Source: an uncultured Candidatus Berkelbacteria bacterium
GTDB lineage: Bacteria > Patescibacteriota > UBA1384 > XYA2-FULL-43-10 > CAINNR01
Length of the DNA: 44,677 nucleotides
Assembly (NCBI GenBank): GCA_903851235.1
Contig: CAINNR010000019.1
Location: 1-44,677, forward strand
Reading direction: 5' to 3'
The notes below the pieces were generated by a model that did no database searches, had not been told where the DNA came from, and saw only the letters and a list, made by a program, of their open reading frames with translations. How positions within the stretch are numbered: the stretch's first letter is position 1; each line of letters opens with the position of its first letter. Shown piece after piece: positions 13,049-44,601 of the stretch. A program made the position numbers and the translations under genes.

Positions 13049-14170
13049 ATGCTGAAAATAAAATATTTATTAAATCTGACTGTTTTGATATTGGTCGTCG
13101 TTTTTGTTTTCTCGGTAAAAGCAAAAGCTCTTGATCCGAATGATGAGATGCCAACTCTTTATTGGGGTAGCCCTTCCGCATCTTGGACTGATAACACCAA
13201 ACAAACCAATACCACCTACTTCCAGGGTGTGTCGAACAAACCGGCGCAAATATCTGAAGTTGTTAGAAATGTCGCGCCGGCAACCTTGCCTAATCTGATT
13301 TTCAACAAAGATTGTTTAATGAACAATACTGCTAGCGACATTGTCGGCAATTGCGTAAACTTTAACGACGCAACATCGATGAAACTTTTAAACAGCCGAT
13401 CCTATGTTAACGGTTATTTGAAAGCGGCGACGGTGGTTTTTGAATATCCGCAAATTAACGTTATCGGCGATTCGTACAACGCCAGTGGCAATTTTGCTTA
13501 TTGGGGGCGGCATTTGCGGCAAACAACGGATTCTTCGGGCTCGAACGCTATTTGGCAACAACAGAATTATATTTTTAACCCTCAAGCGCAAGCATATTGG
13601 AATACTGGAAATAATCCAACGATGCTTTCAACTGTTGCCAGATTATTACAAAATTCGAAAATCTTGTCGACAACCAGTCTCAATCTTTTTGGTCAATTTG
13701 ATGGGGTTTGTGGCCAAGCTCTCGATTGTGGCGAGAAAAACCAGTATTCTGATGGTCGGGTTTGGTTGATTTTGCCGTCAATGTCGATTGGCGCCTCATC
13801 GTTTCCGCAACTGAATTATACAAAAAAATCTACTATAATAGTGGGCGACGGCAATAATCAAAGTAATTTAACTATCGACGCTTCAATATTATCGAGCGAA
13901 ACGGATGCCAGTATCGGTTTTATTATTAGAAAAGGTAATGTGACAATAACAAATTCCAATGCCAAAATAAAAACAATCAACGCTTCGATATTCGCGCCGA
14001 ACGGAACGATCAGCGTTTCCGGCAGTAATATCAACCTGACCGGTTCATTTGTTGCCAATGATTTTAAAGCCAGCGGTTCGAATATCAAATTTACCTTTGA
14101 TTCGCGCGGTGAGTCAGATTGGCCCCCGGGTTTTCGAGATTTACTGCCATTATCAAGCCAAAGCAGGTGA
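13049..14170 (+). CDS. Exported protein of unknown function, upstream of the pilus genes
   Basis: A 373-residue protein starting at the ATG two bases after the previous stop; this start gives a clean signal peptide (residues 1-26, MLKIKYLL to KAKA), whereas the longer open frame begins inside the preceding gene. The middle has about seven cysteines, possibly forming disulfides. The C-terminal 120 residues (IKTINASIFAPNGTISVSGS) are a regular short-strand repeat similar in style to the DUF7305-type beta domains found in PilX-related proteins. Tight coupling to the 10602 gene and closeness to pilN-like genes suggest an envelope or pilus-associated role. Not assigned to a family with certainty. 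Confidence 0.65.
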   Translation: MLKIKYLLNLTVLILVVVFVFSVKAKALDPNDEMPTLYWGSPSASWTDNTKQTNTTYFQGVSNKPAQISEVVRNVAPATLPNLIFNKDCLMNNTASDIVGNCVNFNDATSMKLLNSRSYVNGYLKAATVVFEYPQINVIGDSYNASGNFAYWGRHLRQTTDSSGSNAIWQQQNYIFNPQAQAYWNTGNNPTMLSTVARLLQNSKILSTTSLNLFGQFDGVCGQALDCGEKNQYSDGRVWLILPSMSIGASSFPQLNYTKKSTIIVGDGNNQSNLTIDASILSSETDASIGFIIRKGNVTITNSNAKIKTINASIFAPNGTISVSGSNINLTGSFVANDFKASGSNIKFTFDSRGESDWPPGFRDLLPLSSQSR

Positions 14171-29417: not shown

Positions 29418-30541
29418 TGCTCACCAAGTTACGTAGTTTTGATTTTGGACTGCTAATTACTTCGGCACTTCTAACTTTTAGTGGAATCGCCGTAATTTAT
29501 AGTTTGGTTTTTGCCGAAGTTGTAAGCAATTTGGCACTAAAACAGTTAATATTTTTTCTTGTTGCGCTTCTGATTATGTTTTTGCTGGCAACTTTTGACT
29601 ATCGGATTTTTTCTGGTGCCAGTTGGTATTTGTACCTCGGCGTCATTATTCTTTTGGTTTTGGTTGATCTCTTCGGTAAAACCACCGGTGGTGCGACACG
29701 TTGGATCGATTTGAAAATCTTTCAATTACAACCTTCAGAATTTTATAAATTTGTCTCGATAATATTTATGTCGGCATTTTTATCGCGGCGGATCGGTCGG
29801 GTGAGAATTGTTGATCTTTTGTACATGTTTTTAATGCTTCTGCCGCCATTATTCTTGATTCTAGTTGAGCCGGACTTGGGCACTGCGCTGGTTATTATTT
29901 TTACTTGGTTTGTTCTAATTATCTTTTCTCGACTTTCAGCCAAGCAATATTTATTCATTTTCGGTTCACTGGCAATAATTATAACGATATTTTTTCTCTC
30001 GGTTTACAAAATTAAGCCGTTCACACCGCTGTTGAAAGATTATCAACGGACCAGAGTTGAAACTTTGATTCATCCCTCGAAAGATAAAACTTACGCATAC
30101 AAACAGGGCTACAATGTCGCCCAAGCGCAAATTGCTATCGGTTCGGGCGGAATTTTTGGTCAAGGGTTAAGCCATGGTTCGCAATCGCAACTTCAATTTT
30201 TACCGAAACCGGAAACCGATTTTATTTTCTCCAGTTTCTCCGAAGCTTTCGGTTTAATCGGCGATTTAATTTTGTTTGCGGCTTACATTTTTCTTTTATT
30301 TCGCACCGTCGACATTGCCAAAGTCGCCAAAGACAATTTCGGTTATCTTTTAGCCGTTGGAGTTGGCGCGACGCTGACTTTTCAAATTATTATTAATGTT
30401 GCAATGAATATCGGTCTGGCGCCGGTAACCGGAATTCCGCTACCGTTTATCTCCGCCGGCGGATCCTCACTGATTACATCATTCGTTCTAATTGGTATTC
30501 TCCAGAGTATTTACATCCATCGGAAAAAAATAAGTTTCTAA
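29417..30541 (+). CDS. rodA: RodA/FtsW-family SEDS peptidoglycan polymerase
   Basis: A 374-residue protein with about ten membrane helices. Family motifs visible are TGGATRWIDL, QPSEFYKF, EPDLGTALVI, the loop with YQRTRVETLIHPSKDKTYAYKQGYNVAQAQIAIGSGG, FLPKPETDFIFSSFSEAFG and the C-terminal PVTGIPLPFISAGGSSL. SEDS proteins polymerise lipid II glycan strands. The choice of RodA over FtsW is a judgement from length and the start; no penicillin-binding protein or division gene lies nearby. It is translationally coupled to ileS, an unusual pairing. Confidence 0.88.
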   Translation: MLTKLRSFDFGLLITSALLTFSGIAVIYSLVFAEVVSNLALKQLIFFLVALLIMFLLATFDYRIFSGASWYLYLGVIILLVLVDLFGKTTGGATRWIDLKIFQLQPSEFYKFVSIIFMSAFLSRRIGRVRIVDLLYMFLMLLPPLFLILVEPDLGTALVIIFTWFVLIIFSRLSAKQYLFIFGSLAIIITIFFLSVYKIKPFTPLLKDYQRTRVETLIHPSKDKTYAYKQGYNVAQAQIAIGSGGIFGQGLSHGSQSQLQFLPKPETDFIFSSFSEAFGLIGDLILFAAYIFLLFRTVDIAKVAKDNFGYLLAVGVGATLTFQIIINVAMNIGLAPVTGIPLPFISAGGSSLITSFVLIGILQSIYIHRKKISF

Positions 30542-30564
30542 AAAACCACCCGAATTTGGGTGGT
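30541..30564 (-). terminator. Terminator of the 30583 orphan gene
   Basis: On the minus strand a 7-base stem (30558-30564 with 30545-30551) is followed by T5-6. It starts right at the rodA stop codon, so both genes end on the same hairpin. Confidence 0.8.
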
Positions 30565-30582
30565 GATGGTTTCGCCGAACAA

Positions 30583-30852
30583 CTACTCTGGTAATTCGTC
30601 AGAATCGATAATGCCAAGAGCTGAGTAAATTGAGTTGGAAGCGCCCGCGATTATTTTAGCTCCCCACAATGCCAGTAATGACGGGATTAATAAATAGAAC
30701 ACAGATGAGTGAAAATAGATAACATGGCATAAACACCATCCGCCAAAGGCAGATCCAGAAGCCAATAGTATTGCCCCAAAAAACAATCTCATGCCGAGAC
30801 GCGCAGTAATGAATTGCCACAATTCTCCTTTGGTAAAACCGCCATTATGCAT
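30583..30852 (-). CDS. Orphan two-helix membrane protein
   Basis: An 89-residue protein from the ATG at 30852, which lies nine bases after GGAG; an in-frame ATG at 30861 would add three residues but has no spacing from that GGAG. Two membrane helices are likely (about 20-42 and 47-70), separated by a His/Cys-containing loop (WCLCHVIYFHSS), and the C terminus is acidic (DSDELPE). No family recognised. It has its own promoter and terminator and is divergent from the orphan gene at 31041. Confidence 0.6.
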   Translation of the reverse strand: MHNGGFTKGELWQFITARLGMRLFFGAILLASGSAFGGWCLCHVIYFHSSVFYLLIPSLLALWGAKIIAGASNSIYSALGIIDSDELPE

Positions 30853-30892
30853 CGAATTCATCTCCGTTCATCGGGGTTTTTGCAACAATTAA

Positions 30893-30920
30893 ACTGTATC
30901 AAAATGTCTGACTTTGTCAA
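30893..30920 (-). promoter_or_regulatory. Promoter of the 30583 orphan gene
   Basis: Minus-strand TTGACA (30915-30920), 16-base spacer, TACAGT (30893-30898). The leader is about 35 bases. Confidence 0.55.
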
Positions 30921-30973
30921 TGTTCAAATATTTTATTAATCCATTTCCTTGTCAACAGAGGTGCTGAAAACTC

Positions 30974-31002
30974 TTGTCTCGAAAATACAATAGTGTTATG
31001 TT
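30974..31002 (+). promoter_or_regulatory. Promoter of the 31041 orphan gene
   Basis: TTGTCT (30974-30979), 17-base spacer, TATGTT (30997-31002). It is back to back with the minus-strand promoter at 30893-30920. Confidence 0.5.
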
Positions 31003-31040
31003 ATACCAAGGTCACAAATACTAGAGCGAGGTGATGGAAA

Positions 31041-31388
31041 GTGGCTGACCGCAGTTTTGTCTCACAGATTCGTGATGCAAGTAGAGCACAAAGGGATTTG
31101 GTGGGAGTTGCATACCTTGTCCACATTTTGGGTGTTCCATTTCCATGCGCTATGTATATCGCTCCAACCGAGAATAACATATCATGGCAAGTAGTCGAGT
31201 TTATTCTTCACACCCAAGGACGTTTGAATAATGTTAAAGCATTTCGTTGTGCCGTCATATCGATTCTTGAATGCGAAAGTTTGCCAGACCTTGATCCGTT
31301 CGATATCCTTTGCCGAATTTGCCCCGTTGGCGAAAACACCTCGTCGGTTATCAAACAGTTTTATACTTTGGCCCATCGTTGTAAATAA
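31041..31388 (+). CDS. Orphan hypothetical protein
   Basis: A 115-residue protein starting at GTG with GAGGTGA six bases upstream. It is predicted mostly helical, has six cysteines (including CAVISILEC, CRICP and the terminal HRCK) and no membrane helix or signal peptide. I cannot place it in a family. It is a one-gene unit with its own promoter and a strong hairpin terminator, directly before the insertion sequence. Confidence 0.55.
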   Translation: MADRSFVSQIRDASRAQRDLVGVAYLVHILGVPFPCAMYIAPTENNISWQVVEFILHTQGRLNNVKAFRCAVISILECESLPDLDPFDILCRICPVGENTSSVIKQFYTLAHRCK

Positions 31389-31396
31389 GATCTCCA

Positions 31397-31420
31397 AACC
31401 CGCAATCGCGGGTTTTATTT
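31397..31420 (+). terminator. Terminator of the 31041 orphan gene
   Basis: A perfect 7-base stem (AACCCGC 31397-31403 with 31408-31414) and an AATC loop followed by a T-rich tail. Confidence 0.85.
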
Positions 31421-31432
31421 TATCTCTGCGGA

Positions 31433-32584
31433 GGCTGAGATACATCGGTAACAAATCTGGTATGATCGAGAGTTCAAATCAGATTAATGAAAATGAGGTT
31501 ACCGATGAAAGTATTTAGTATCTCTCCACCCAATGTTATCCAACCGATTGTTTTAAACTTGCCAACATTCAAAAGAAAACCGATCGTTTTGGATGACAAA
31601 ATTAGTAGATGGCGCGGAATTGCCGACCTAATTAATTTATCTATGAGTGGTCGTCTTCGGTTGGAGTGGATGATATTCTTTGAGACAGCCGGAAATCATA
31701 ACGCATATAATACTTCCAAACATTTTAGTATCGCCCCAAAGACTTTTTACAAATGGCACAAAAGGTTCAACAACGGTTTAGTTAAAAAACTTGAAGATGA
31801 AACTACAAGACCAAAAAACACAAGAAAATGGCAGGTTACTGCCATAGAAGAATGTCGAATTATGAAACTTCGAAAGGCTAAAATCCACTATGGGAAACAA
31901 AAGATTAAAAAGCTCTACAAAACAGAATACAGTGAAGTAATATCAACTTGGAAAATCGAAAGAGTGATTCAAAAACATGATCTCTATCCTGATCCAATCA
32001 AAGCTGAAAAAACCCGATCTAAGCTCAAAAATGCCTCTAAAAAGAATAGAATCCAGAAGTTGGATATTTTAGAGGAGCATTGGTTCTTGCTTCATCTTGA
32101 TACGATTGTGATCTATTGGGGCAGTGTTAAAAGATACATCCTAACCGCCATCGATCATCATGGAAAGATCGCTTATGCCAGAATGTATACAACCAAATCA
32201 TCAAGGTCGGCAAAAGACTTTCTTTACCGGCTTCACTACTTGATTGATGCTGATATTTTAAATGTTCAAACAGACAACGGATCAGAGTTTTTTGCTGAAT
32301 TTGAAAAAGCACTAGCCGAACTTTCAATTCTTCATTGGTTCTCACGTCCAAGAACACCAGAGGACAACTCAGTGGTTGAAAAGTTCAATCAAACATTACA
32401 AGACGAATGGCTGAATGACGGCAACTTTACACCGGTCATTAATGACTTCAATAGAGAGCTAACTGATTGGTTAGAGGAATACAATTTTTACAGGCCACAC
32501 CAGACACTTGACTATCTTACACCGATTGAGTACCTTGAGGATACATTAAGAAAACAACAAAAGTTGTTACCTATGTACTCTGCC
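31433..32584 (+). mobile_element. IS481-like insertion sequence
   Basis: A roughly 1.15-kb element bounded by imperfect inverted repeats. TACATCGGTAACAA at 31441-31454 matches the reverse complement of 32564-32577 at 13 of 14 bases, and the match extends outward as GGCTGAG(A)/GGCAGAG to about 31433 and 32584. It carries one intact DDE transposase gene. I could not identify a target-site duplication, so the exact ends are uncertain by a few bases. The rplU promoter starts only 12 bases beyond the right end. Confidence 0.8.
31443..31507 (+). promoter_or_regulatory. Start-codon-sequestering hairpin in the transposase leader
   Basis: A perfect 10-base inverted repeat, CATCGGTAAC (31443-31452) with GTTACCGATG (31498-31507). 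The second arm includes the transposase ATG (31505-31507), and an inner AATCTG/CAGATT stem (31454-31459 with 31480-31485) strengthens the fold. RNA entering from upstream would hide the start codon, while a transcript starting inside the element would lack the first arm. Confidence 0.6.
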
Positions 32585-32599
32585 AGTGCAATCTCTTGA
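31505..32599 (+). CDS. IS481-like DDE transposase
   Basis: A 364-residue integrase-core transposase. The N-terminal 110 residues contain helix-turn-helix motifs (ISRWRGIADLINLSMSG; SIAPKTFYKWHKRF). The catalytic triad is Asp199 (HLDTIVIYWG), Asp257 (QTDNGSEF) and Glu292 (DNSVVEKFNQ), with 34 residues between the last two. YRPHQTLDYLTPIEYL near the C terminus is the usual ending of the family. The frame is intact, so the element may be active. I place the start at 31505 rather than 31487 because it sits inside the regulatory inverted repeat and fits the family start better; this is not certain. Confidence 0.88.
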   Translation: MKVFSISPPNVIQPIVLNLPTFKRKPIVLDDKISRWRGIADLINLSMSGRLRLEWMIFFETAGNHNAYNTSKHFSIAPKTFYKWHKRFNNGLVKKLEDETTRPKNTRKWQVTAIEECRIMKLRKAKIHYGKQKIKKLYKTEYSEVISTWKIERVIQKHDLYPDPIKAEKTRSKLKNASKKNRIQKLDILEEHWFLLHLDTIVIYWGSVKRYILTAIDHHGKIAYARMYTTKSSRSAKDFLYRLHYLIDADILNVQTDNGSEFFAEFEKALAELSILHWFSRPRTPEDNSVVEKFNQTLQDEWLNDGNFTPVINDFNRELTDWLEEYNFYRPHQTLDYLTPIEYLEDTLRKQQKLLPMYSASAIS

Positions 32600-34550: not shown

Positions 34551-36395
34551 ATGTCAACAAAGAAACTTGTATTTACTAAAACTAAAAGTATGACGATTGA
34601 TGATGTTATCACACATCTTCATACTTTTGGATATGAGCGAGTTCAAAATTTGATCAATTTTGGCCAGTTTTCTGTTTCCGGCGGTTTGGTGAAAATATAT
34701 TCAGCAGCAAATTTTTACCCTGTAACAATTGATTTTTTTTCCGACGAAATAGATAGAATATATTCTTTTGATATTATACCAAATAAGAAAATTGAGGATT
34801 TTGATTCAATAGAAATTCCGGAAAATAAAATTCGTCTAGATGAGAATGAAGTTCAACCAGGAGATTTAGTCGTACACATTGATCACGGAATTGGAATTTA
34901 TCGCGGTCGAATTTTGAAAAAATATGGATCAGGGAATAAAGAATTCTTTGCTATTGAATATGCAAATGGTGATTTTCTGTATCTGCCGGAAAAAGTGATT
35001 TCCAAATTGACTAAATACATGGGGGTTAGTAGACGAACGCCGAGACTTTCTAGGCTTGGCTCAGTAGTTTGGGAAAAAACACGGAAAAAAATTGAGCAAA
35101 GTATACTAGAGCTGGCTAAAGAATTACTATTAGTATATGCCAAAAGAGAATTAATCGTTCGCCCAAAATATCTGATAGATCACGCTTGGGACGAAAAACT
35201 TAAAAATACCTTTAAACATACGGAAACTCCTGATCAGGAGAAAGCGATTGCGGAAATTTATAGTGACTTGGAACTTGGGCGACCAATGGATCGCTTGCTA
35301 ATTGGCGATGTTGGCTTTGGAAAAACCGAAGTTGCTGTTAGGGCGGCGGCTCAAGTCATAGAGAATGGTGGTCAAGTCGCGATTCTGGCTCCGACAACAA
35401 TTCTTTCTCGACAGCATTTTGTTACCATTAGTGACCGTTTGAAGGAATTGCCGATTGAAGTCGCTGAACTTTCGAGATTTGTCAGAACATTCGATCAGGA
35501 AAAAATTGTTGCCGGCTTAAAATCGGGAAAAATTGATTTGGTAATTGGTACTCACAGACTGATAAAATCTGACATTGCCTTCAAAAATCTTGGGCTTTTA
35601 ATTATCGATGAAGAGCAACGTTTCGGTGTTAAAGATAAAGAAAAACTTAAAGGCCTTAAGCATGATGTTGACATTTTGTCGCTATCAGCAACACCAATTC
35701 CGCGAACATTATTTATTTCACTTTCCGGAATCAGACAATTATCGGTAATAAAAACTCCACCGGTTGGACGACGATCAATTGAAACAAAAATTGAAAAATA
35801 TGATCTGGAAAAAATAAAGGAATATATATCAAAAGAGATTAATCGTGGCGGTCAGGTGTATTTTCTCCATAACGATGTCAAAACGATTGAAGCCAGAGCA
35901 GCGGAATTTCGACGAATATTTCCGAAATCAAAAATATCCGTTGGTCACGGGCAACTCTCTGAGGAAAATTTAGCTCAAGTCATGGCCGACTTCGCGTCGA
36001 AGAAAATTGATATATTATTTTGCTCGACTATTATAGAAAATGGTCTTGACATTCCGACAGCAAATACTTTAATAGTTGAAGATGCTGATAATTTCGGTTT
36101 GTCTCAACTTTATCAAATTCGCGGACGAATCGGTCGCGGTGCCGACCAAGCATTTTCCTATTTTACCTACAAAAAAAATCTGGTCGGTAACGCCTACAAA
36201 CGTTTGCAAGCGTTGGCGGAAAAAACCGATTTAGGTAGTGGCTTTGATATCGCTTATTCGGATTTGGAAATTCGCGGTGGAGGAAATATTCTCGGTCGCA
36301 AACAACATGGAAATATGGAGGAGTTGGGATTGATTCTCTACACGAAACTTTTGAACCAAACAGTCAAAAAATTAAAACAACAGAACACCGGTTAA
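34551..36395 (+). CDS. mfd: Shortened Mfd-like transcription-repair coupling translocase
   Basis: A 614-residue protein, about half the usual Mfd. It begins within the end of the UvrB-homology module (FGYERVQNLINFGQFSVSGG, then DFFSDEIDRIYSFD), then has the RNA-polymerase-interacting CarD-like domain (about 100-165; PGDLVVHIDHGIGIYRGR) and the two RecA-like motor domains with Walker A-type GDVGFGKTEV, DEEQ box (IIDEEQRFGV), SATPIPRTL and the QIRGRIGR motif VI. The C-terminal TRCF domain that masks UvrA binding is absent, as is most of the UvrB-like part that recruits UvrA. It may displace stalled polymerase without normal repair coupling. The start at 34551 has no Shine-Dalgarno. Confidence 0.85.
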   Translation: MSTKKLVFTKTKSMTIDDVITHLHTFGYERVQNLINFGQFSVSGGLVKIYSAANFYPVTIDFFSDEIDRIYSFDIIPNKKIEDFDSIEIPENKIRLDENEVQPGDLVVHIDHGIGIYRGRILKKYGSGNKEFFAIEYANGDFLYLPEKVISKLTKYMGVSRRTPRLSRLGSVVWEKTRKKIEQSILELAKELLLVYAKRELIVRPKYLIDHAWDEKLKNTFKHTETPDQEKAIAEIYSDLELGRPMDRLLIGDVGFGKTEVAVRAAAQVIENGGQVAILAPTTILSRQHFVTISDRLKELPIEVAELSRFVRTFDQEKIVAGLKSGKIDLVIGTHRLIKSDIAFKNLGLLIIDEEQRFGVKDKEKLKGLKHDVDILSLSATPIPRTLFISLSGIRQLSVIKTPPVGRRSIETKIEKYDLEKIKEYISKEINRGGQVYFLHNDVKTIEARAAEFRRIFPKSKISVGHGQLSEENLAQVMADFASKKIDILFCSTIIENGLDIPTANTLIVEDADNFGLSQLYQIRGRIGRGADQAFSYFTYKKNLVGNAYKRLQALAEKTDLGSGFDIAYSDLEIRGGGNILGRKQHGNMEELGLILYTKLLNQTVKKLKQQNTG

Positions 36396-36405
36396 TTTCT
36401 GAATT

Positions 36406-36433
36406 AAAAAACCACCGCCCTAAAAGGCGGTGG
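36406..36433 (-). terminator. Terminator of the 36456 orphan gene
   Basis: Minus strand: perfect 8-base stem (36426-36433 with 36412-36419) followed by T6. Confidence 0.85.
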
Positions 36434-36455
36434 AACAATTTGGTGTTTGGTGACG

Positions 36456-36851
36456 TCAGTTGTTGCTGTCGGGGCGACCGACCTCAATGACACGGAACTC
36501 GATGCCGGCACGTCGCAACTTACAGGCCGGGCAATCGCAGTCGTCCTTGTCACGAGTCCAAACCTTCCAGCCCTCGGCAATTCCAACAGCGTAGACATCT
36601 TGTAGCCCCATGACTTCGCGCAGTTGCCACCAGAAGCAGCGTCGCACGATTTCTTCTAGTCCCAATTCGCGCAGATCTGGCTTGTCGGCCTCAGAGATCT
36701 TTGCGGATAGGGCGGTTCTGTAGTTCTCGAGCTGACGTAGCTCATCGGGCACTTCGCCGACAATGCGGGCGAAGTCGGGCATCGGGCAGTCTATCTGTGC
36801 TTCTCCAGGCTGACCCAACTGAAACAACGTATCGAGAAGGGTTTGGAACAT
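36456..36851 (-). CDS. Orphan GC-rich protein with a Cys cluster
   Basis: A 131-residue soluble protein, mostly helical and acidic in the first 85 residues. A CxCPxC cluster (DCDCPACKLRRAG, about 105-115) could bind a metal, and GLQDVYAVGIAEGWKVWTRD precedes it. I do not recognise a family. GAGGTGAGAG lies before the ATG. Its GC content is clearly above that of mfd, topA and the other backbone genes, which suggests foreign origin or different codon pressure. It has a TTGACA promoter, a long hairpin in its leader and its own terminator. Confidence 0.6.
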   Translation of the reverse strand: MFQTLLDTLFQLGQPGEAQIDCPMPDFARIVGEVPDELRQLENYRTALSAKISEADKPDLRELGLEEIVRRCFWWQLREVMGLQDVYAVGIAEGWKVWTRDKDDCDCPACKLRRAGIEFRVIEVGRPDSNN

Positions 36852-36904
36852 CTCTCACCTCGCGGTTTTCATCGCCGTTTTTTAAACCAGTCGATGCTCC
36901 CAAA

Positions 36905-36941
36905 GGAGAGAATATTTACTTCTTTAATAAACATTCTCTCC
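36905..36941 (-). promoter_or_regulatory. Long hairpin in the leader of the 36456 gene
   Basis: A perfect 9-base stem (GGAGAGAAT 36905-36913 with 36933-36941) continues inward as TTTA/TAAA after one mismatch, and outward CCC/GGG can pair across a small internal loop. On the minus strand it lies about 50 bases before the start codon. It has no T-run, so it is not a simple terminator. Confidence 0.6.
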
Positions 36942-36960
36942 TCAGGGATCTTACTTTAGC

Positions 36961-36989
36961 ATGCTATCACAAAGTTTTTATTTTGTCAA
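36961..36989 (-). promoter_or_regulatory. Promoter of the 36456 orphan gene
   Basis: Minus strand TTGACA (36984-36989), 17-base spacer, TAGCAT (36961-36966). The -35 directly abuts the T-run of the terminator of the next unit upstream. Confidence 0.6.
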
Positions 36990-37016
36990 GAAAAAAAACA
37001 CCGCCCAAATGGGCGG
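36990..37016 (-). terminator. Terminator of the 37028 orphan gene
   Basis: Minus strand: CCGCCC/GGGCGG stem (37011-37016 with 37001-37006) followed after two bases by T8. Confidence 0.8.
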
Positions 37017-37027
37017 CGGCGGTAATA

Positions 37028-37417
37028 TTAAGACGGAGCGTATTCGATGTCATAACCATGACCATGTCTTTCAACCTCGACAAAACTTTCGCCGTTCCAA
37101 TGGTACTCAATCCAGCGGAGTAGTTGGTCGGACGTAGGGCTGAAAGGCGCACTATCAGTGACGCGAATTCGGCCATCTTCCGGTAAACCAGTCAGTTTAT
37201 TCCACAAATCTGCGATGGCATTTTTGGTTTCGGTCCCCGAGCCGGAGACTATCGATAATGTCGAATCTGATCCTGAGTTACGGGTTTCGACTGTCAAAAT
37301 CCAGTTCATGCACTCGGCTATCCAAAGTTCCAATTTTCTGTCCCACCGGATGTGGAGGTCAAATATTCCACTAATCAATTCGGCACGAGTCTTCATTTCG
37401 GCGTTGGCTTGCGACAT
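37028..37417 (-). CDS. Orphan hypothetical protein
   Basis: A 129-residue soluble protein starting at the ATG at 37417, which has GGAGG nine bases upstream; a longer in-frame start at 37468 would lie upstream of the predicted transcription start and is rejected. It is rich in Trp (six in all, e.g. HIRWDRKLELWIAECMNW, WIEYHWNGESF) and ends in a short acidic tail. No family recognised. It is the upstream member of two tandem one-gene units and is GC-richer than its neighbours. Confidence 0.6.
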   Translation of the reverse strand: MSQANAEMKTRAELISGIFDLHIRWDRKLELWIAECMNWILTVETRNSGSDSTLSIVSGSGTETKNAIADLWNKLTGLPEDGRIRVTDSAPFSPTSDQLLRWIEYHWNGESFVEVERHGHGYDIEYAPS

Positions 37418-37458
37418 AGTGGCCAACCTCCATGTACAAGGATTCGTGTTCGAGGAGT

Positions 37459-37487
37459 AGAATACCATCGGTCGATTTTTTTGTCAA
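37459..37487 (-). promoter_or_regulatory. Promoter of the 37028 orphan gene
   Basis: Minus strand TTGACA (37482-37487), 17-base spacer, TATTCT (37459-37464). It lies inside the dprA remnant. Confidence 0.65.
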
Positions 37488-37722
37488 ACAAAGAAATGTC
37501 GTCGAGGAAAAAATTTTCAAAGCGATCGAATTGGAATCGTTAACAGTTGACAAAATCGTTAAATTAACTAAGCTTGATATTGTGATGGAAAATTTGATGA
37601 TGTCGTTTTTCGAAATTTCTGGTAGAGTGGAAAAAGCTAGGGGTTGGATTTCGGCTAAGGTGAAGTTGGAGAAAATGTCAGATAAATTTTATAACTCAAT
37701 TTTTAAAATAATTTATAATTAG
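37471..37722 (+). pseudogene. dprA: C-terminal remnant of dprA
   Basis: The frame encodes about 83 residues that read as the winged-helix end of DprA: EEKIFKAIELESLTVDKIVKLTKLD then FFEISGRVEKARG. The Rossmann domain that binds single-stranded DNA and delivers it to RecA is entirely missing. The nearest ATG upstream (37432) lies in sequence belonging to the opposite-strand unit. dprA next to topA is a common bacterial order, which supports the identity. The front of the gene has been replaced by the orphan units at 36406-37487. Confidence 0.65.
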
Positions 37723-37757: not shown

Positions 37758-39980
37758 ATGAACCTAGTAATTGTTGAATCACCGGCTAAGGCAAAAACGA
37801 TCGAGAAATTTTTAGGCAAGGATTTCAAGGTCTTGGCTTCGTACGGTCATGTTCGTGATTTGCCGAAAAAGGAACTCGGCGTTGACGTTGCAAATAATTA
37901 TCAGCCCATCTATGAAATTCCGGCCGATTCCAAAAAGACAATTCGTGCGCTGAAAAATGAACAAGAGAAAGCTAAAATAATTTATCTGGCGACTGACTTG
38001 GATCGCGAAGGAGAAGCAATTTCTTGGCATGTCCTAAAAGCATTAAAATTGAAAGATGATGATAAAAATGTTAAACGAATTACATTTAACGAAATAACAA
38101 AAACGGCGTTGCAAAAAGCAGTCGCGAATCCGCGAGAAATTGATATGAATTTGGTTGACGCTCAACAAGCGCGAAGAGTTTTGGACAGACTGGTCGGCTA
38201 TAAATTGTCGCCGCTATTATGGAAAAAGGTTAAGTCAGGTCTTTCTGCCGGTCGAGTTCAATCGGTTGCCGTTCGCTTGGTTGTTGAACGTGAACGGGAA
38301 ATTAAGGGTTTCAAACCAGAGGAGTTTTGGATTTTGGCGGTGGTATTATCGAAAAAGAATGACGAATTAAAATTCAAAGCTTTCTTGATCGAAGAGAATG
38401 GCAAACCAATCAAAAAGCTTGATATCAAAAACGAAAAAGACGCCAAGCGACTGGAAAAAACATTAGCCGGCGCCAAATATAAAGTTTTGTCGCTCGACAA
38501 AAACGATTCAGTTAGAAGTCCGTCGGCGCCTTTTACGACTTCAACTCTGCAGATGGAATCATCGCGAAAACTCGGAGTTTCAGTAAAGCAAACGATGATG
38601 TTGGCGCAAAGATTGTACGAAGCGGGCAAAATCACTTATATGCGAACCGATTCGACCAATTTATCATCCGCGGCGGTAGCGGAAATTCGCAAGACAATCG
38701 AAAAAGAATATGGTAAGAAGTATTTACCACAAGCCGAGCAAAAATATACGACAAAGACCAAACATGCACAAGAGGCTCACGAAGCGATCCGGCCAACACA
38801 TTTTTCCGAGAGATCGGCATCCGACGATCCGCGCGAACAGCGACTTTATGAGTTGATTTGGAAACGGACGATGGCGTCGCAAATGTCCTCAGCGATTTTT
38901 CAAATTACCGAAGCTCGGGTTTTGGCTGATGTCAAAGAGAAACTGGTTTTCTTGGCCCGCGGTGAAAGCATTAAATTTGACGGCTTTATAAAGGTATATA
39001 CTGAAGGCAAAGATGACGAAGTTGAAGAGGAGAAAATAACCATTCCGGAGTTGGTTAAAGATGAAGTTTTAGATTTTCATCAATTTGAAAAAACGCAAAA
39101 ATTTACCGAACCGCCGAAACGCTATACCGAAGCGACGCTGGTTAAAAAATTGGAGGGCTTGGGAATCGGTCGGCCATCAACTTACGCACCGACGATGTCT
39201 ACAATTCAAGACCGTGGCTACGTTCGTTTGGAGGAAAAGCGATTTTTTCCCGAGGAGATTGCCGAAATTGTCAATGATCTTTTAGTTGAGCACTTTCCGA
39301 AAGTCGTTGATTTTCAATTCACGGCCAAAATGGAGGATGAATTTGATGACATTGCCGAGGGAAAAATGAAGTGGCAAGCGGTAATTGATGAATTTTATCT
39401 TCCGTTTGCAGCAACATTAAAAGAGAAAAACAAGGAATTGGACAAAAAAGATATTGTGCCGGTGAAAGAGATCGGCGAAAAATGTCCGGAGTGCAAGAAA
39501 CCATTGGTTGAACGTTTCGGCCGCTTTGGCAAATTTATTGCTTGCTCCGATTATCCGAATTGCAAATATTCTCGGCCACTGGAAAGTAAGAAAGAGATGA
39601 AAAACGCCGTTGTTGCCGATGATGACGGTGGAACGACAAAAGTCGCCGACGCCGAAGGCGAGAAATGCGAAAAATGTGGTGGTAAAATGGTTTTAAAAGA
39701 GGGGAGATTTGGCAAATTTCTGGCTTGTGAAAATTATCCGAAATGCAAAAATACCAGAACGATTATTACCGATACCAAAGTCAAGTGTCCAGAGTGTAAA
39801 AATGGTACGCTGGTTGAGCGTCGAACAAAACATGGCCGAACATTTTGGGGTTGCTCGACTTATCCCAAGTGCAAATATGCTAGTTGGGAAGACCCAAAGG
39901 CAGAGAAGAAAGAGGTGGAGAATATGGAACAAGCAGGAATTCAAGAGAGTTCAGAAATCGAGGGGAAAGGAGTTGAATAA
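37758..39980 (+). CDS. topA: DNA topoisomerase I
   Basis: A 740-residue type IA topoisomerase that relaxes negative supercoils. The Toprim domain has VESPAKAKTIEKFLG and the acidic triad region ATDLDREGEAI. The active-site tyrosine is Tyr294 in ITYMRTDSTNLS. Three C-terminal four-cysteine zinc ribbons are visible (CPECKKP...CSDYPNC, CEKCGGK...CENYPKC, CPECKNG...CSTYPKC). A short acidic tail follows. AGAGGG precedes the ATG. Full length for the family. Confidence 0.97.
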   Translation: MNLVIVESPAKAKTIEKFLGKDFKVLASYGHVRDLPKKELGVDVANNYQPIYEIPADSKKTIRALKNEQEKAKIIYLATDLDREGEAISWHVLKALKLKDDDKNVKRITFNEITKTALQKAVANPREIDMNLVDAQQARRVLDRLVGYKLSPLLWKKVKSGLSAGRVQSVAVRLVVEREREIKGFKPEEFWILAVVLSKKNDELKFKAFLIEENGKPIKKLDIKNEKDAKRLEKTLAGAKYKVLSLDKNDSVRSPSAPFTTSTLQMESSRKLGVSVKQTMMLAQRLYEAGKITYMRTDSTNLSSAAVAEIRKTIEKEYGKKYLPQAEQKYTTKTKHAQEAHEAIRPTHFSERSASDDPREQRLYELIWKRTMASQMSSAIFQITEARVLADVKEKLVFLARGESIKFDGFIKVYTEGKDDEVEEEKITIPELVKDEVLDFHQFEKTQKFTEPPKRYTEATLVKKLEGLGIGRPSTYAPTMSTIQDRGYVRLEEKRFFPEEIAEIVNDLLVEHFPKVVDFQFTAKMEDEFDDIAEGKMKWQAVIDEFYLPFAATLKEKNKELDKKDIVPVKEIGEKCPECKKPLVERFGRFGKFIACSDYPNCKYSRPLESKKEMKNAVVADDDGGTTKVADAEGEKCEKCGGKMVLKEGRFGKFLACENYPKCKNTRTIITDTKVKCPECKNGTLVERRTKHGRTFWGCSTYPKCKYASWEDPKAEKKEVENMEQAGIQESSEIEGKGVE

Positions 39981-39981
39981 T

Positions 39982-40011
39982 AAAAAAGCCGCAAAAAAGT
40001 AATCTGCGGCT
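39982..40011 (-). terminator. Terminator of the 40019 orphan gene
   Basis: Minus strand: AGCCGCA/TGCGGCT stem (40005-40011 with 39987-39993) followed by T6. It sits two bases after the topA stop. Confidence 0.8.
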
Positions 40012-40018
40012 GGAGTAT

Positions 40019-40210
40019 TCAATCTTCTGATTGGTTTGCTGAAAATACGATTAGTAAGAAACCGATACCCATGATTACCAATCCTGCAACCCCCAGAACA
40101 AGGCGCAGGTGCTTAGTTTCCTCGTACAGCTCGAAACTCATTGGAGGGTTGAAATCATCACAATTCATTAGCATGCCAGCGGCTACTAATATGAACCCAA
40201 TTCTGGTCAT
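40019..40210 (-). CDS. Orphan two-helix membrane microprotein
   Basis: A 63-residue protein with two membrane helices (about 3-15, short, and 37-57) around a charged loop (NPPMSFELYEETKHLR). GGGAGG lies seven bases before the ATG, and part of it can pair in a small CGCC/GGCG hairpin. No family recognised. It is a one-gene unit in tandem with the unit at 40343-40582, with which it shares 15 identical promoter bases. Confidence 0.55.
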   Translation of the reverse strand: MTRIGFILVAAGMLMNCDDFNPPMSFELYEETKHLRLVLGVAGLVIMGIGFLLIVFSANQSED

Positions 40211-40253
40211 CTAGACGCCTCCCGTGGCGAGTCGATTGTTCGATATCCAAAAT

Positions 40254-40282
40254 AACATATCATCATTGCTTTAATTTGTCAA
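40254..40282 (-). promoter_or_regulatory. Promoter of the 40019 orphan gene
   Basis: Minus strand TTGACA (40277-40282), 17-base spacer, TATGTT (40254-40259). The sequence CATTGACAAATTAAA is identical in the promoter at 40627-40655. Confidence 0.6.
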
Positions 40283-40308
40283 TGATTTATGCCAAAAAAT
40301 TGAGTATT

Positions 40309-40335
40309 AAAAAACCCGCGCCGGACGGGCGCGGG
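40309..40335 (-). terminator. Terminator of the 40343 orphan gene
   Basis: Minus strand: perfect 8-base GC stem (40328-40335 with 40315-40322) followed by T6. Confidence 0.88.
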
Positions 40336-40342
40336 GGTGGGT

Positions 40343-40582
40343 TCAATCAGAGATGTCATCTATCACCTCTTGAAACTTGTCAAGAAAGATATCCACTTCT
40401 GCTTCTATCCCTGATCGATTGATGATAACCAAAAACACGAGAGACAGAGCTCCTAAACCATAAGTGAAGTAGTATCCAAAGCCTGGTATCAAACGATCGC
40501 AAAGTAGCAAACAAATGGTGATGACAATCATGGCATACTGACAACATGGCGCTAGTTGCAAGTTAATTGCCGGTTTGCCCAT
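40343..40582 (-). CDS. Orphan two-helix membrane protein
   Basis: A 79-residue protein with two membrane helices (about 15-30 and 36-56) and an amphipathic acidic C-terminal segment (IEAEVDIFLDKFQEVIDDISD). CC and C residues lie near the first helix. No family recognised. GGGAG lies 11 bases before the ATG and AAGG directly before it. It is the upstream member of a tandem pair on the minus strand between topA and recR. Confidence 0.55.
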   Translation of the reverse strand: MGKPAINLQLAPCCQYAMIVITICLLLCDRLIPGFGYYFTYGLGALSLVFLVIINRSGIEAEVDIFLDKFQEVIDDISD

Positions 40583-40626
40583 CCTTCGTCCATCTCCCTT
40601 CGGCTATTCGCGACGATCTTGTCACG

Positions 40627-40655
40627 ATCATAATATAAATAATTTAATTTGTCAA
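40627..40655 (-). promoter_or_regulatory. Promoter of the 40343 orphan gene, overlapping the recR start
   Basis: Minus strand TTGACA (40650-40655), 17-base spacer, TATGAT (40627-40632). The -35 shares a base with the recR ATG (40655), so the two genes face away from interlocking promoters. For recR itself TTGTCA (40619-40624), 18 bases and TTTAAT (40643-40648) would put the transcript start at the ATG. Confidence 0.55.
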
Positions 40656-41626: not shown

Positions 41627-42994
41627 ATGAAATTCTACAACACATTATCAAAATCTCTCGAGGAATTTAAACCGATCGAAACCGGCAAGGTTAAACTTTA
41701 TACTTGTGGTCCGACGGTTTACAATTTTGCTCACATCGGCAATTTGCGAACCTATATTTTTGAGGATTTGCTTCGCCGATTGCTGGAATTTTCCGGCTAC
41801 AACGTCGTGCAGGTTATGAATATGACTGATGTTGATGACAAAACCATTAAAGCCGCCGGCGGTAATCGAGATGAATTTTCTACTTTGACAAAAAAATATG
41901 AAAAAGCATTTTTATCCGACTTGGAAGAATTAAATATCTTGCGTCCGACGGAAATTACCCGAGCGACGGAATACATCGATCAAATTGTTGAATTTGTTTC
42001 CGAACTTTTGGATAAAGGTTTTGCTTACAAAGGTCAGGATGGTTCGATTTATTTTTCAATCGATAAATTTGCCGATTACGGAAAATTGTCCGGTTTGGAT
42101 AAAAATGGCATTAAATCTGGCGCTCGCGTCTCACAAGACGAATATACCAAAGAAAATCCGGCGGATTTTGCCCTCTGGAAAGCTTGGGATGAATCCGATG
42201 GTGATATATTCTGGGATACCAGTTTGGGCAGGGGTCGGCCCGGCTGGCATATTGAGTGTTCAACAATGAGCCAGGACAAGTTGGGCGAAACGATCGATAT
42301 CCACACCGGCGGAGTTGATTTGGTTTTTCCACATCACGAAAATGAAATTGCCCAGTCCGAAGCGCGAACGGGCAAGAGGTTTGTAAATTTTTGGCTTCAC
42401 GCCGAGCATCTTTTGGTTGATGGCAAAAAAATGTCCAAGAGTTTGGGTAATGTTTATGTTCTCGCCGATATTGAAAAAAAGGGCTTTTCGCCGCTTGATT
42501 TTCGCTATTTGTGCCTGTCGGCCAATTATCGCGACAAATTAAATTTTACTTGGCAATCACTTCTAGCGGCAAAAAATGCTTTAACGAGAGCGAGAAAGAT
42601 CATCCATAATTCTGTCACCCTGAGTGAAACGAAAAATTCGGATTCTTCGGCGAAGCTCCAGAATGGCTATTTGGAAAAATTCAAGCAGGTGCTCGAGGAC
42701 GATTTAAATATGCCTGGAGCTTTAGCAGTTTTCTGGAATTTATTGCGTGATGAAAAATTATCAGCCAGCGAAAAAAAAGCTACGGCTCTGGAAATGGACA
42801 AGGTTTTCGGGCTTGATTTGGATCAAGTGTCACACGAAAAAATTCCGGACAATGTGCGAAAGTTGGTTAGCGATCGAACAAAAGCTCGCAATGAGAAAAA
42901 TTTTGAACTCTCAGATAAATTGCGTCATCAAATTGAGGATCTTGGATATTTAATCGAGGACACCGAATCCGGAGCTAAAGTTTTTGAGAGATAA
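41627..42994 (+). CDS. cysS: Cysteinyl-tRNA synthetase
   Basis: A 455-residue class I synthetase that charges tRNA-Cys. Visible motifs are the zinc cysteine in YTCGPTVYN, the HIGH box HIGN (36-39), the GRPGWHIECS zinc segment, the HHENEIAQSEA helix and KMSKS (268-272). A dispersed palindromic repeat is inserted in frame at 42612-42666, in the linker before the C-terminal DALR-type helical domain. Length is normal for the family. Confidence 0.96.
   Translation: MKFYNTLSKSLEEFKPIETGKVKLYTCGPTVYNFAHIGNLRTYIFEDLLRRLLEFSGYNVVQVMNMTDVDDKTIKAAGGNRDEFSTLTKKYEKAFLSDLEELNILRPTEITRATEYIDQIVEFVSELLDKGFAYKGQDGSIYFSIDKFADYGKLSGLDKNGIKSGARVSQDEYTKENPADFALWKAWDESDGDIFWDTSLGRGRPGWHIECSTMSQDKLGETIDIHTGGVDLVFPHHENEIAQSEARTGKRFVNFWLHAEHLLVDGKKMSKSLGNVYVLADIEKKGFSPLDFRYLCLSANYRDKLNFTWQSLLAAKNALTRARKIIHNSVTLSETKNSDSSAKLQNGYLEKFKQVLEDDLNMPGALAVFWNLLRDEKLSASEKKATALEMDKVFGLDLDQVSHEKIPDNVRKLVSDRTKARNEKNFELSDKLRHQIEDLGYLIEDTESGAKVFER
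42612..42666 (+). repeat. Dispersed palindromic repeat inserted in cysS
   Basis: The segment starting CTGTCACCCTGAGTGAAAC and ending GGCGAAGCTCCAGAATGG has the form of the imperfect palindromic elements (TCAxxCTGAGxGAAxCGAA ... TTCGxxxxxGCTCxAGAATG) common in intergenic DNA of environmental bacteria. Here it is translated in frame as about 18 Ser/Asn/Lys-rich residues (SVTLSETKNSDSSAKLQN). Confidence 0.55.
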
Positions 42995-43033
42995 AAAAAA
43001 AGCCACCGCTCCCCGCAATGCGGGGACGGTGGC
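42993..43033 (-). terminator. Terminator of the structured RNA
   Basis: Minus strand: GCCACCG stem (43027-43033 with 43002-43008) topped by a CCCCGC/GCGGGG stem (43011-43016 with 43020-43025), followed by T9. The strongest terminator in the window. Confidence 0.92.
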
Positions 43034-43448
43034 GTGTACTCTTCCAACTAACTGCACGTGCGCCCGATCAGATTAGGGAGCCAGGTGGACTCCCTCCCTC
43101 CGGTTCGACGTTCGCAGGGCAAAGATTTAACGGCAACCCCAACTTGAAATCAGTATCTGGTTTCAAGTGGTCTGGCGGAGCTTCCTTTGCTCCCCCTACC
43201 AGCCTTTGTCACGCCAGACAGGACCCATAGCCCTGCGGTGCAACAACCACTGCTTCGACCTCGGTCTCCCGGATGGGATCCGAGTTTGCTGCGAGAGGTA
43301 CTCTGCCGGTGACACTGATGTCGACGGCAGTGACGACTCTCTGCGGACGAAACAGCTGCACTTGCTCACCTCCCTATATGGTGAGTGGGCGGCGAAGCTC
43401 GCGGGGCCAGATTACTTCCTGGCCAACAACTTGCTTCGCCAAATCACT
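42993..43448 (-). ncRNA. GC-rich structured RNA of unknown family
   Basis: About 450 bases on the minus strand without a minus-strand reading frame over 60 codons, much richer in GC than the flanks. Perfect stems (plus coordinates) include 43391-43398 with 43433-43440 enclosing 43405-43410 with 43419-43424; 43365-43370 with 43380-43385; 43260-43264 with 43280-43284; 43114-43120 with 43230-43236, which encloses 43170-43176 with 43213-43219 (itself holding 43177-43181 with 43189-43193) and 43142-43149 with 43161-43168; and 43076-43080 with 43090-43094. A promoter and a strong terminator bound it. I looked for RNase P (GAGGAAAGUC, ACAGAA), tmRNA, SRP and rRNA signatures and did not find them; a highly diverged RNase P RNA is not excluded. 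Confidence 0.7.
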
Positions 43449-43454
43449 AAAATC

Positions 43455-43482
43455 ATTTTAGCATATATCAGAAAAAAGTCAA
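43455..43482 (-). promoter_or_regulatory. Promoter of the structured RNA
   Basis: Minus strand TTGACT (43477-43482), 16-base spacer, TAAAAT (43455-43460) with extended TG at 43462-43463. The transcript should begin near 43448, a few bases before the first stem. Confidence 0.6.
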
Positions 43483-43608: not shown

Positions 43609-44601
43609 ATGAAAAATTGCTGGCAAACAATCAAAAAACCGATTTTATTACTTGCGCCAATGGCCGGCTACACCGACTCAGCTTTTAGAATTGTTTGCAA
43701 AAATCAGGGTGCAAATTTACTGATGACGGAATTGATTAGCGCGGATGCAATAGCCCACTTTGTGGGTAAGAAACAAGTAACAAGTAACAAGATACAAACA
43801 AATCCGACATATAAGTTGATGGAATTTCAAAAAGAGGAGATGCCGATTATTGTCCAGCTTTTTGGCAAGCACCCGGAGAAATTTGCCATAGCCGCTAAGT
43901 GGATTGAGGAGAATTTGTCGCCGGCAGGCATTGATATCAACATGGGCTGTCCGGCTAAAAAGGTCATCGCGTCCAATCACGGCGCGACCCTTCTGCGCGA
44001 TCAAGCCAGGGGAGTTGAAGTGGTAAAAGCGGTTCGGGTGGCGACAAAATTGCCACTGTCGGTGAAAACTCGGCTTGGCTGGGAGCGAGATGATGAGATT
44101 TTGGAATTCGGGCCAAAACTGATTGATGCCGGTGTCGATGCCTTAATTATCCACGGCAGGACTTACAAAGATGGATTTGCTAATGTTTCCCGTTGGGAGA
44201 ACATTTACGCGCTGAAATCTAAAATCCAAAATTTAAATGTCAAAATTATCGGTAATGGTGACATTAAAAATCAAACAGATATAATGGAAAGAATCGGCAA
44301 TTTGGATGGAGTCGCGATAGGTCGCGCTACGGTTGGAAATCCATTTATTTTCAATCCCGATTTTTTATCATTACCGGAAAAAGAAAAAATGGAAATTATC
44401 AAAAAGACTATTATAGAACATGCGAAACTGGCATTTGAAATAAAAGGTGAAAAGGGAATTATCGAACTGCGAAAACATTTGCTGGCATATTTTAAAGGTC
44501 ACCCGCGGGCGAAAAATTTGCGCAAGAGTTTTGTGACGGTAAAAAGCTTGTCAGACATCAGAAAAGCACTCATTGCTATGTATGCTATTGACATTCTATA
44601 A
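43609..44601 (+). CDS. dus: tRNA-dihydrouridine synthase
   Basis: A 330-residue FMN enzyme that reduces uridines in the tRNA D-loop. The TIM barrel has LAPMAGYTDSAFR at its start, IVQLFGKHPEKF, the catalytic Cys114 in INMGCPAKK, TRLGW, LIIHGRT and the FMN-phosphate site (IIGNGDI, GVAIGRATVGNPFIF). The C-terminal helical domain (ELRKHLLAYFKGHPRAKNLR) is of the DusB kind. A heptamer repeat (43772-43799) lengthens the loop around residues 55-65. Confidence 0.94.
   Translation: MKNCWQTIKKPILLLAPMAGYTDSAFRIVCKNQGANLLMTELISADAIAHFVGKKQVTSNKIQTNPTYKLMEFQKEEMPIIVQLFGKHPEKFAIAAKWIEENLSPAGIDINMGCPAKKVIASNHGATLLRDQARGVEVVKAVRVATKLPLSVKTRLGWERDDEILEFGPKLIDAGVDALIIHGRTYKDGFANVSRWENIYALKSKIQNLNVKIIGNGDIKNQTDIMERIGNLDGVAIGRATVGNPFIFNPDFLSLPEKEKMEIIKKTIIEHAKLAFEIKGEKGIIELRKHLLAYFKGHPRAKNLRKSFVTVKSLSDIRKALIAMYAIDIL
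43772..43799 (+). repeat. Heptamer repeat inside dus
   Basis: Four 7-base units, AACAAGT twice, then AACAAGA and TACAAAC, encode a Lys/Gln/Thr/Asn-rich loop between two conserved parts of the barrel. Confidence 0.7.

Follow-up and report, generated by a model that had tools for sequence, protein, structure and literature searches.

A GC-rich, structured transcription unit between cysS and dusB of a Berkelbacteria genome: a candidate orphan RNA gene

Among the large structured non-coding RNAs of unknown role, OLE, ROOL and GOLLD are conserved in sequence and structure across many species. Orphan small RNA (sRNA) genes of bacteria are stand-alone intergenic units with their own sigma-70 promoter and terminator, their products form hairpins, they encode no clear protein, and their distribution is narrow. 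The unit that we describe here came from the window (the whole 44,677-nt stretch of DNA that was analyzed), which is contig C19 of a draft genome (G000) of 1.04 Mb, 98% complete and in 39 contigs. A preliminary description had proposed that its product was either a new large RNA or a very diverged housekeeping RNA. Like OLE, ROOL and GOLLD, the unit would produce a large structured RNA of unknown role, but it matched neither these nor the other large RNAs of Rfam, and it does not share their conservation. The reading that we favor, with middling confidence, is an independent, lineage-restricted orphan RNA gene, most likely non-coding, with a fast-evolving body.

A transcription unit between cysS and dusB

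The minus strand of the slot between cysS and dusB holds a complete transcription unit (Table 1). Both of the signals reported in the preliminary description, an extended -10 promoter and a terminator, were confirmed, and TG does precede the -10 element of the promoter (43482..43455). A genome-wide search with the pattern TTGAC-N11-TATATGCTAAWATG, allowing up to three mismatches, produced 19 matches in G000 versus a single match for the reversed control, with a similar excess over the control in three family members; the spacer in the window is one base shorter than that of the search pattern. This extended -10 promoter type is genuine and is used genome-wide in the lineage. The terminator hairpin is highly stable (-29.2 kcal/mol, z -6.6) and shares two bases with cysS, the final two of its stop codon, and on the 3' side of cysS no terminator with a T run was seen on the plus strand. 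The body of the unit has a GC content of 57%, versus 41% for the window.

Table 1. Features of the unit and its neighbors in the window
Feature	Position	Strand	Basis or remark
cysS (cysteinyl-tRNA synthetase), convergent neighbor	41627..42994	+	ORF list; 77% identical in G001
Intrinsic terminator, 14-bp GC-rich hairpin (43033..43002) with one bulge, then nine T	42993..43033	-	Sequence and folding
Predicted transcript, ~456 nt	42993..43448	-	Promoter and terminator positions
Two further 8-bp stems, GTCTGGCG/CGCCAGAC (43219-43170) and ACTTGAAA/TTTCAAGT (43168-43142)	43142..43219	-	Stem list
Possible 50-codon ORF, GTG start behind GGAGGTGAGCAA	43209..43361, including stop	-	Shine-Dalgarno-led
5' hairpin, 8-bp stem GGCGAAGC/GCTTCGCC, inner stem GGCCAG/CTGGCC	43391..43440	-	z -4.2
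Sigma-70 promoter, extended -10: TTGACT-N16-TAAAAT, TATGC ahead of -10	43455..43482	-	10 of 12 consensus matches
dusB-like tRNA-dihydrouridine synthase gene, divergent neighbor	43609..44601	+	ORF list; 78% identical in G001

Based on these signals, sigma-70 polymerase would initiate at about 43448 (the start is predicted, placed ~7 nt downstream of the -10), and the product would be a GC-rich RNA folded as a chain of hairpins, its transcription ending where the 3' end of the convergent cysS meets the intrinsic terminator. No family scored above the cut-off for the plus-strand ORFs of 62, 70 and 111 codons, and a DusB query against genome contigs returned distant DusB relatives only.

Known RNA families and folding

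Rfam 15 was silent on the unit at the gathering score, and at E<=10 there were only chance matches to snoRNA and pseudoknot models, none of them relevant, which upheld the earlier view that no recognized family is represented. RNase P RNA and tmRNA are of similar size, and it could be asked whether the unit is a highly diverged copy of a housekeeping RNA, be it RNase P RNA, tmRNA, SRP RNA or 6S RNA, an idea given some weight by the failure to find two such RNAs in G000: despite the 98% completeness of the genome, the small SRP RNA model (RF00169) was unmatched in a search that succeeded in 13 of 14 control genomes, and 6S RNA (RF00013) was found neither in G000 nor in four family members. However, the models for these two RNAs had no match in the unit at E<=10, nor did the class A RNase P model (RF00010) at either the gathering score or E<=10, and the tmRNA model (RF00023) did not match it. 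In addition, a check of the rest of the genome located both RNase P RNA (G000:C36:1452-1813, 158 bits) and tmRNA (G000:C23:10100-10482, 134 bits, with a predicted tag peptide), and the unit is therefore excluded as either of them. Conservation within the genus would be expected of a housekeeping RNA, and RNase P RNA retains 90% identity between G000 and G001, a genome of the same genus, in which the body of the unit is unconserved; the body thus evolves too fast for such a role. The proposal of a diverged housekeeping RNA was abandoned on these grounds, and we consider it extremely improbable.

The RNase P RNA matches had a peculiarity of their own, being 484 nt long in G001 (L200, G001:C28:6244-6727) and 491 nt in G003 (L199, G003:C15:18302-18792) versus 362 nt in G000. 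The part that aligns with the G000 RNA is 84% identical in G003, against the 90% of G001, and each of the two longer RNAs seems to contain an insertion of ~120 nt. In G003, a minus-strand stretch (L026:2217-3019) matched positions 406 to 1533 of the 16S rRNA model, at a score of just 31.9 bits across its 803 bases, and was overlapped by a weak group II intron match, and this 16S gene is possibly interrupted or fragmentary.

The unit as a whole folds more stably than its shuffled versions (z = -6.05, matched by 0 of 100), and its 416-nt body without the terminator had a z of -3.9 against dinucleotide shuffles. For comparison, the tmRNA and RNase P RNA of G000 had values of -4.6 and -4.9, respectively, and ten other short GC-rich units of G000 and G001 ranged from -2.8 to +1.2. 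The plus strand of the body folds as well as the minus strand (z -5.0), so the folding energy has no say on the strand, which is set by the promoter and terminator. The preliminary description had drawn attention to at least eight perfect stems of 5-8 bases, and stems are indeed plentiful, with 21 of at least 5 bp, but this number is not unusual, since the shuffles had 17.9 and 26 of 100 reached 21. It is only the three 8-bp stems, equaled in 1 of 100 shuffles, and the global folding energy that rise above chance, not the count of short stems. The local fold of one of these three, ACTTGAAA/TTTCAAGT, had a z of -2.7.

Coding potential and other short units

It had been stated that the minus strand contained no reading frame, and this needs some correction, as the unit has a 50-codon ORF led by a Shine-Dalgarno (SD) sequence, though one that is unconserved and of a kind (SD-led, at least 50 codons) present in 6.6% of dinucleotide shuffles. 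The unit might then be the mRNA for an orphan 50-residue protein, initiated at the GTG behind GGAGG, with the 5' hairpin and the hairpin at the start codon as leader structure. The ORF has a residue composition ~2 sd above that of shuffles and outscores the other five frames, but narrowly, as a reverse frame comes nearly as high. There was no match to the ORF in Pfam, and a search for its relatives in 60 genomes found none beyond a single match in G046, which was antisense to a long ORF and was judged to be due to chance. The ORF spans only about one third of the transcript, both its SD and its GUG start lie within the pairs of a hairpin in the predicted minimum free energy (MFE) fold, and the unit that occupies this slot in G001 has no SD-led ORF above 8 codons. 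What makes a small-protein mRNA a serious rival is that G000 has many short GC-rich units of like style, i.e., promoter, SD, ORF and terminator, the majority of which would encode small orphan proteins; on balance we regard it as possible but doubtful.

These short units of G000, surveyed in a partial census of ~370 kb of genome stretches, are monocistronic and intergenic, and consist of a sigma-70 promoter, an SD sequence, a small ORF of 30-120 codons and an intrinsic terminator; several are rich in GC, their GC3 reaching 0.8. Examples in the window, all on the minus strand, are 30546-30929, 39988-40253 and 40315-40626, and the small ORFs of such units tested in the window had no Pfam match; further examples in G000 include L147:18480-18842, L148:7659-8000, L145:8725-8958 and L155:17549-17733, among others. 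Some slots differ between G000 and G001 (e.g., 39913-40635 and 30541-32595 of the window versus 13106-13552 and 4360-4424 of G001:C8, L162), the conserved genes there being separated by other small minus-strand ORFs or by no such ORF at all, and small genes thus seem to turn over quickly between genomes of the same genus. In the slot at 36377-37494, a related small ORF has been kept in both. One minus-strand unit, L159:15180-15350 on G000:C36, has a promoter, ~110 nt of GC-rich hairpins and a terminator, with no SD-led ORF and no Rfam match, making it a candidate for a second, shorter orphan RNA. Short, GC-rich intergenic units with strong promoters and terminators are a wider feature of G000, and some of them are not the same in its sister species.

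Counterparts in related genomes and the nature of the unit

The gene order around the slot is kept in G001, whose flanking genes are 74-76% identical in DNA, and the same slot and strand contain a GC-rich unit of ~430 nt that has a promoter of this type, a terminator of its own and a folding z of -2.7. The bodies of the two units have no sequence similarity beyond chance, and the alignable part is limited to the promoter and some 30 bases at the start of the transcript (gap-free, ~69% identity over 45 positions). Within this part, all 7 pairs of the 5' hairpin are kept even though both partners have changed in two of them, one pair going from G-C to A-U and the other from A-U to G-C. The test for covariation among homologs thus provided one 7-bp helix in its favor, read from a sequence-only alignment, but comparable helix covariation arose somewhere in the alignment in 12 of 200 shuffles, and it is suggestive and no more. 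The whole fold did not exceed its controls: the fold-and-align score of the two bodies was 114.5, versus 102-128 for mirror and reverse-complement controls, with a home-made aligner that had no positive control. The proposal of a new large RNA therefore survives weakly, as a lineage-restricted orphan RNA with a hint of covariation in one helix, and is weakened by a body that is not conserved in G001. That the unit represents a hitherto undescribed class of large structured RNAs, in which the 5' hairpin and general architecture were kept while the sequence was wholly replaced within the genus, strikes us as quite improbable.

The slot of G002, a genome of another genus, holds the 3' end of a comparable unit, with a GC-rich minus-strand terminator; the unit there is cut by the contig end, and its remainder was looked for and not found. 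The slots of G007 and G005 have short terminator-bearing units of ~150 and ~90 nt, respectively; no such minus-strand unit was seen straight after cysS in G004, G006, G008, G009 or G010, G003 had no cysS match, and most relatives at the order level lack the unit. In G010, the plus strand behind cysS (L052:3280-3500) has a promoter-like sequence and then ~200 nt whose ends (AAGAGC...GCTCTT) are complementary and rod-like; there was no Rfam match. A DNA search of 146 related genomes recovered the unit and otherwise just matches of 17-41 nt, and the five that were viewed in context were seemingly due to chance, being inside genes or a promoter-like word. Searches of phage, plasmid and IMG/VR sequences found nothing.

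A promoter and terminator that persist around a body unrecognizable between sister species could also mean a transcript with no function, the signals serving to oppose read-through from cysS, or the slot being one of transient short units, with the body as filler. The lack of a plus-strand T-run terminator behind cysS would fit this explanation, as would the other slots of the window that differ between sister species and the mere ~90- and 150-nt units in G005 and G007. However, folding above shuffles in both species and a GC content far above background would not be expected of filler, and the 5' hairpin seems to have been kept. We hold a functionless transcript to be unlikely.

To return to the orphan RNA gene, the unit has a promoter, a terminator, above-chance folding and a same-slot counterpart in a sister species, and belongs to no known family. 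To that extent the earlier claim that the unit produces an RNA of no known family is supported, tempered by the chance that the short ORF is coding. We infer that the RNA is transcribed, that it is not translated and that it has a function of some kind. It would act as a non-coding RNA, e.g., as an orphan sRNA of the genus with a regulatory or protein-binding role, for which the promoter, the 5' hairpin and the terminator would be retained as the body changes fast. With a body so poorly conserved, it has the look of a young transcript specific to the lineage, not of a hidden essential RNA. If it is transcribed and functional, it is an RNA gene of intermediate size that was missed by the family libraries because its body is unrecognizable between species of one genus.

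Set beside known systems, the unit resembles RNase P RNA and tmRNA in length and in its folding z, although it differs from both in fitting neither model and in having their true copies elsewhere in the genome. It shares its promoter type, monocistronic form, GC richness, own terminator and intergenic slot with the small-protein units of G000, but in those an SD-led ORF mostly fills the unit, whereas here the best ORF is unsupported and fills far less, and the folding is stronger. It is also like the orphan sRNA genes of bacteria, all of whose features listed at the outset it has: it is intergenic with its own promoter and intrinsic terminator, and has a stable structure beyond its composition, on energies that do not distinguish the strands. 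It differs from them in being longer, at ~456 nt, and far GC-richer than its genome.
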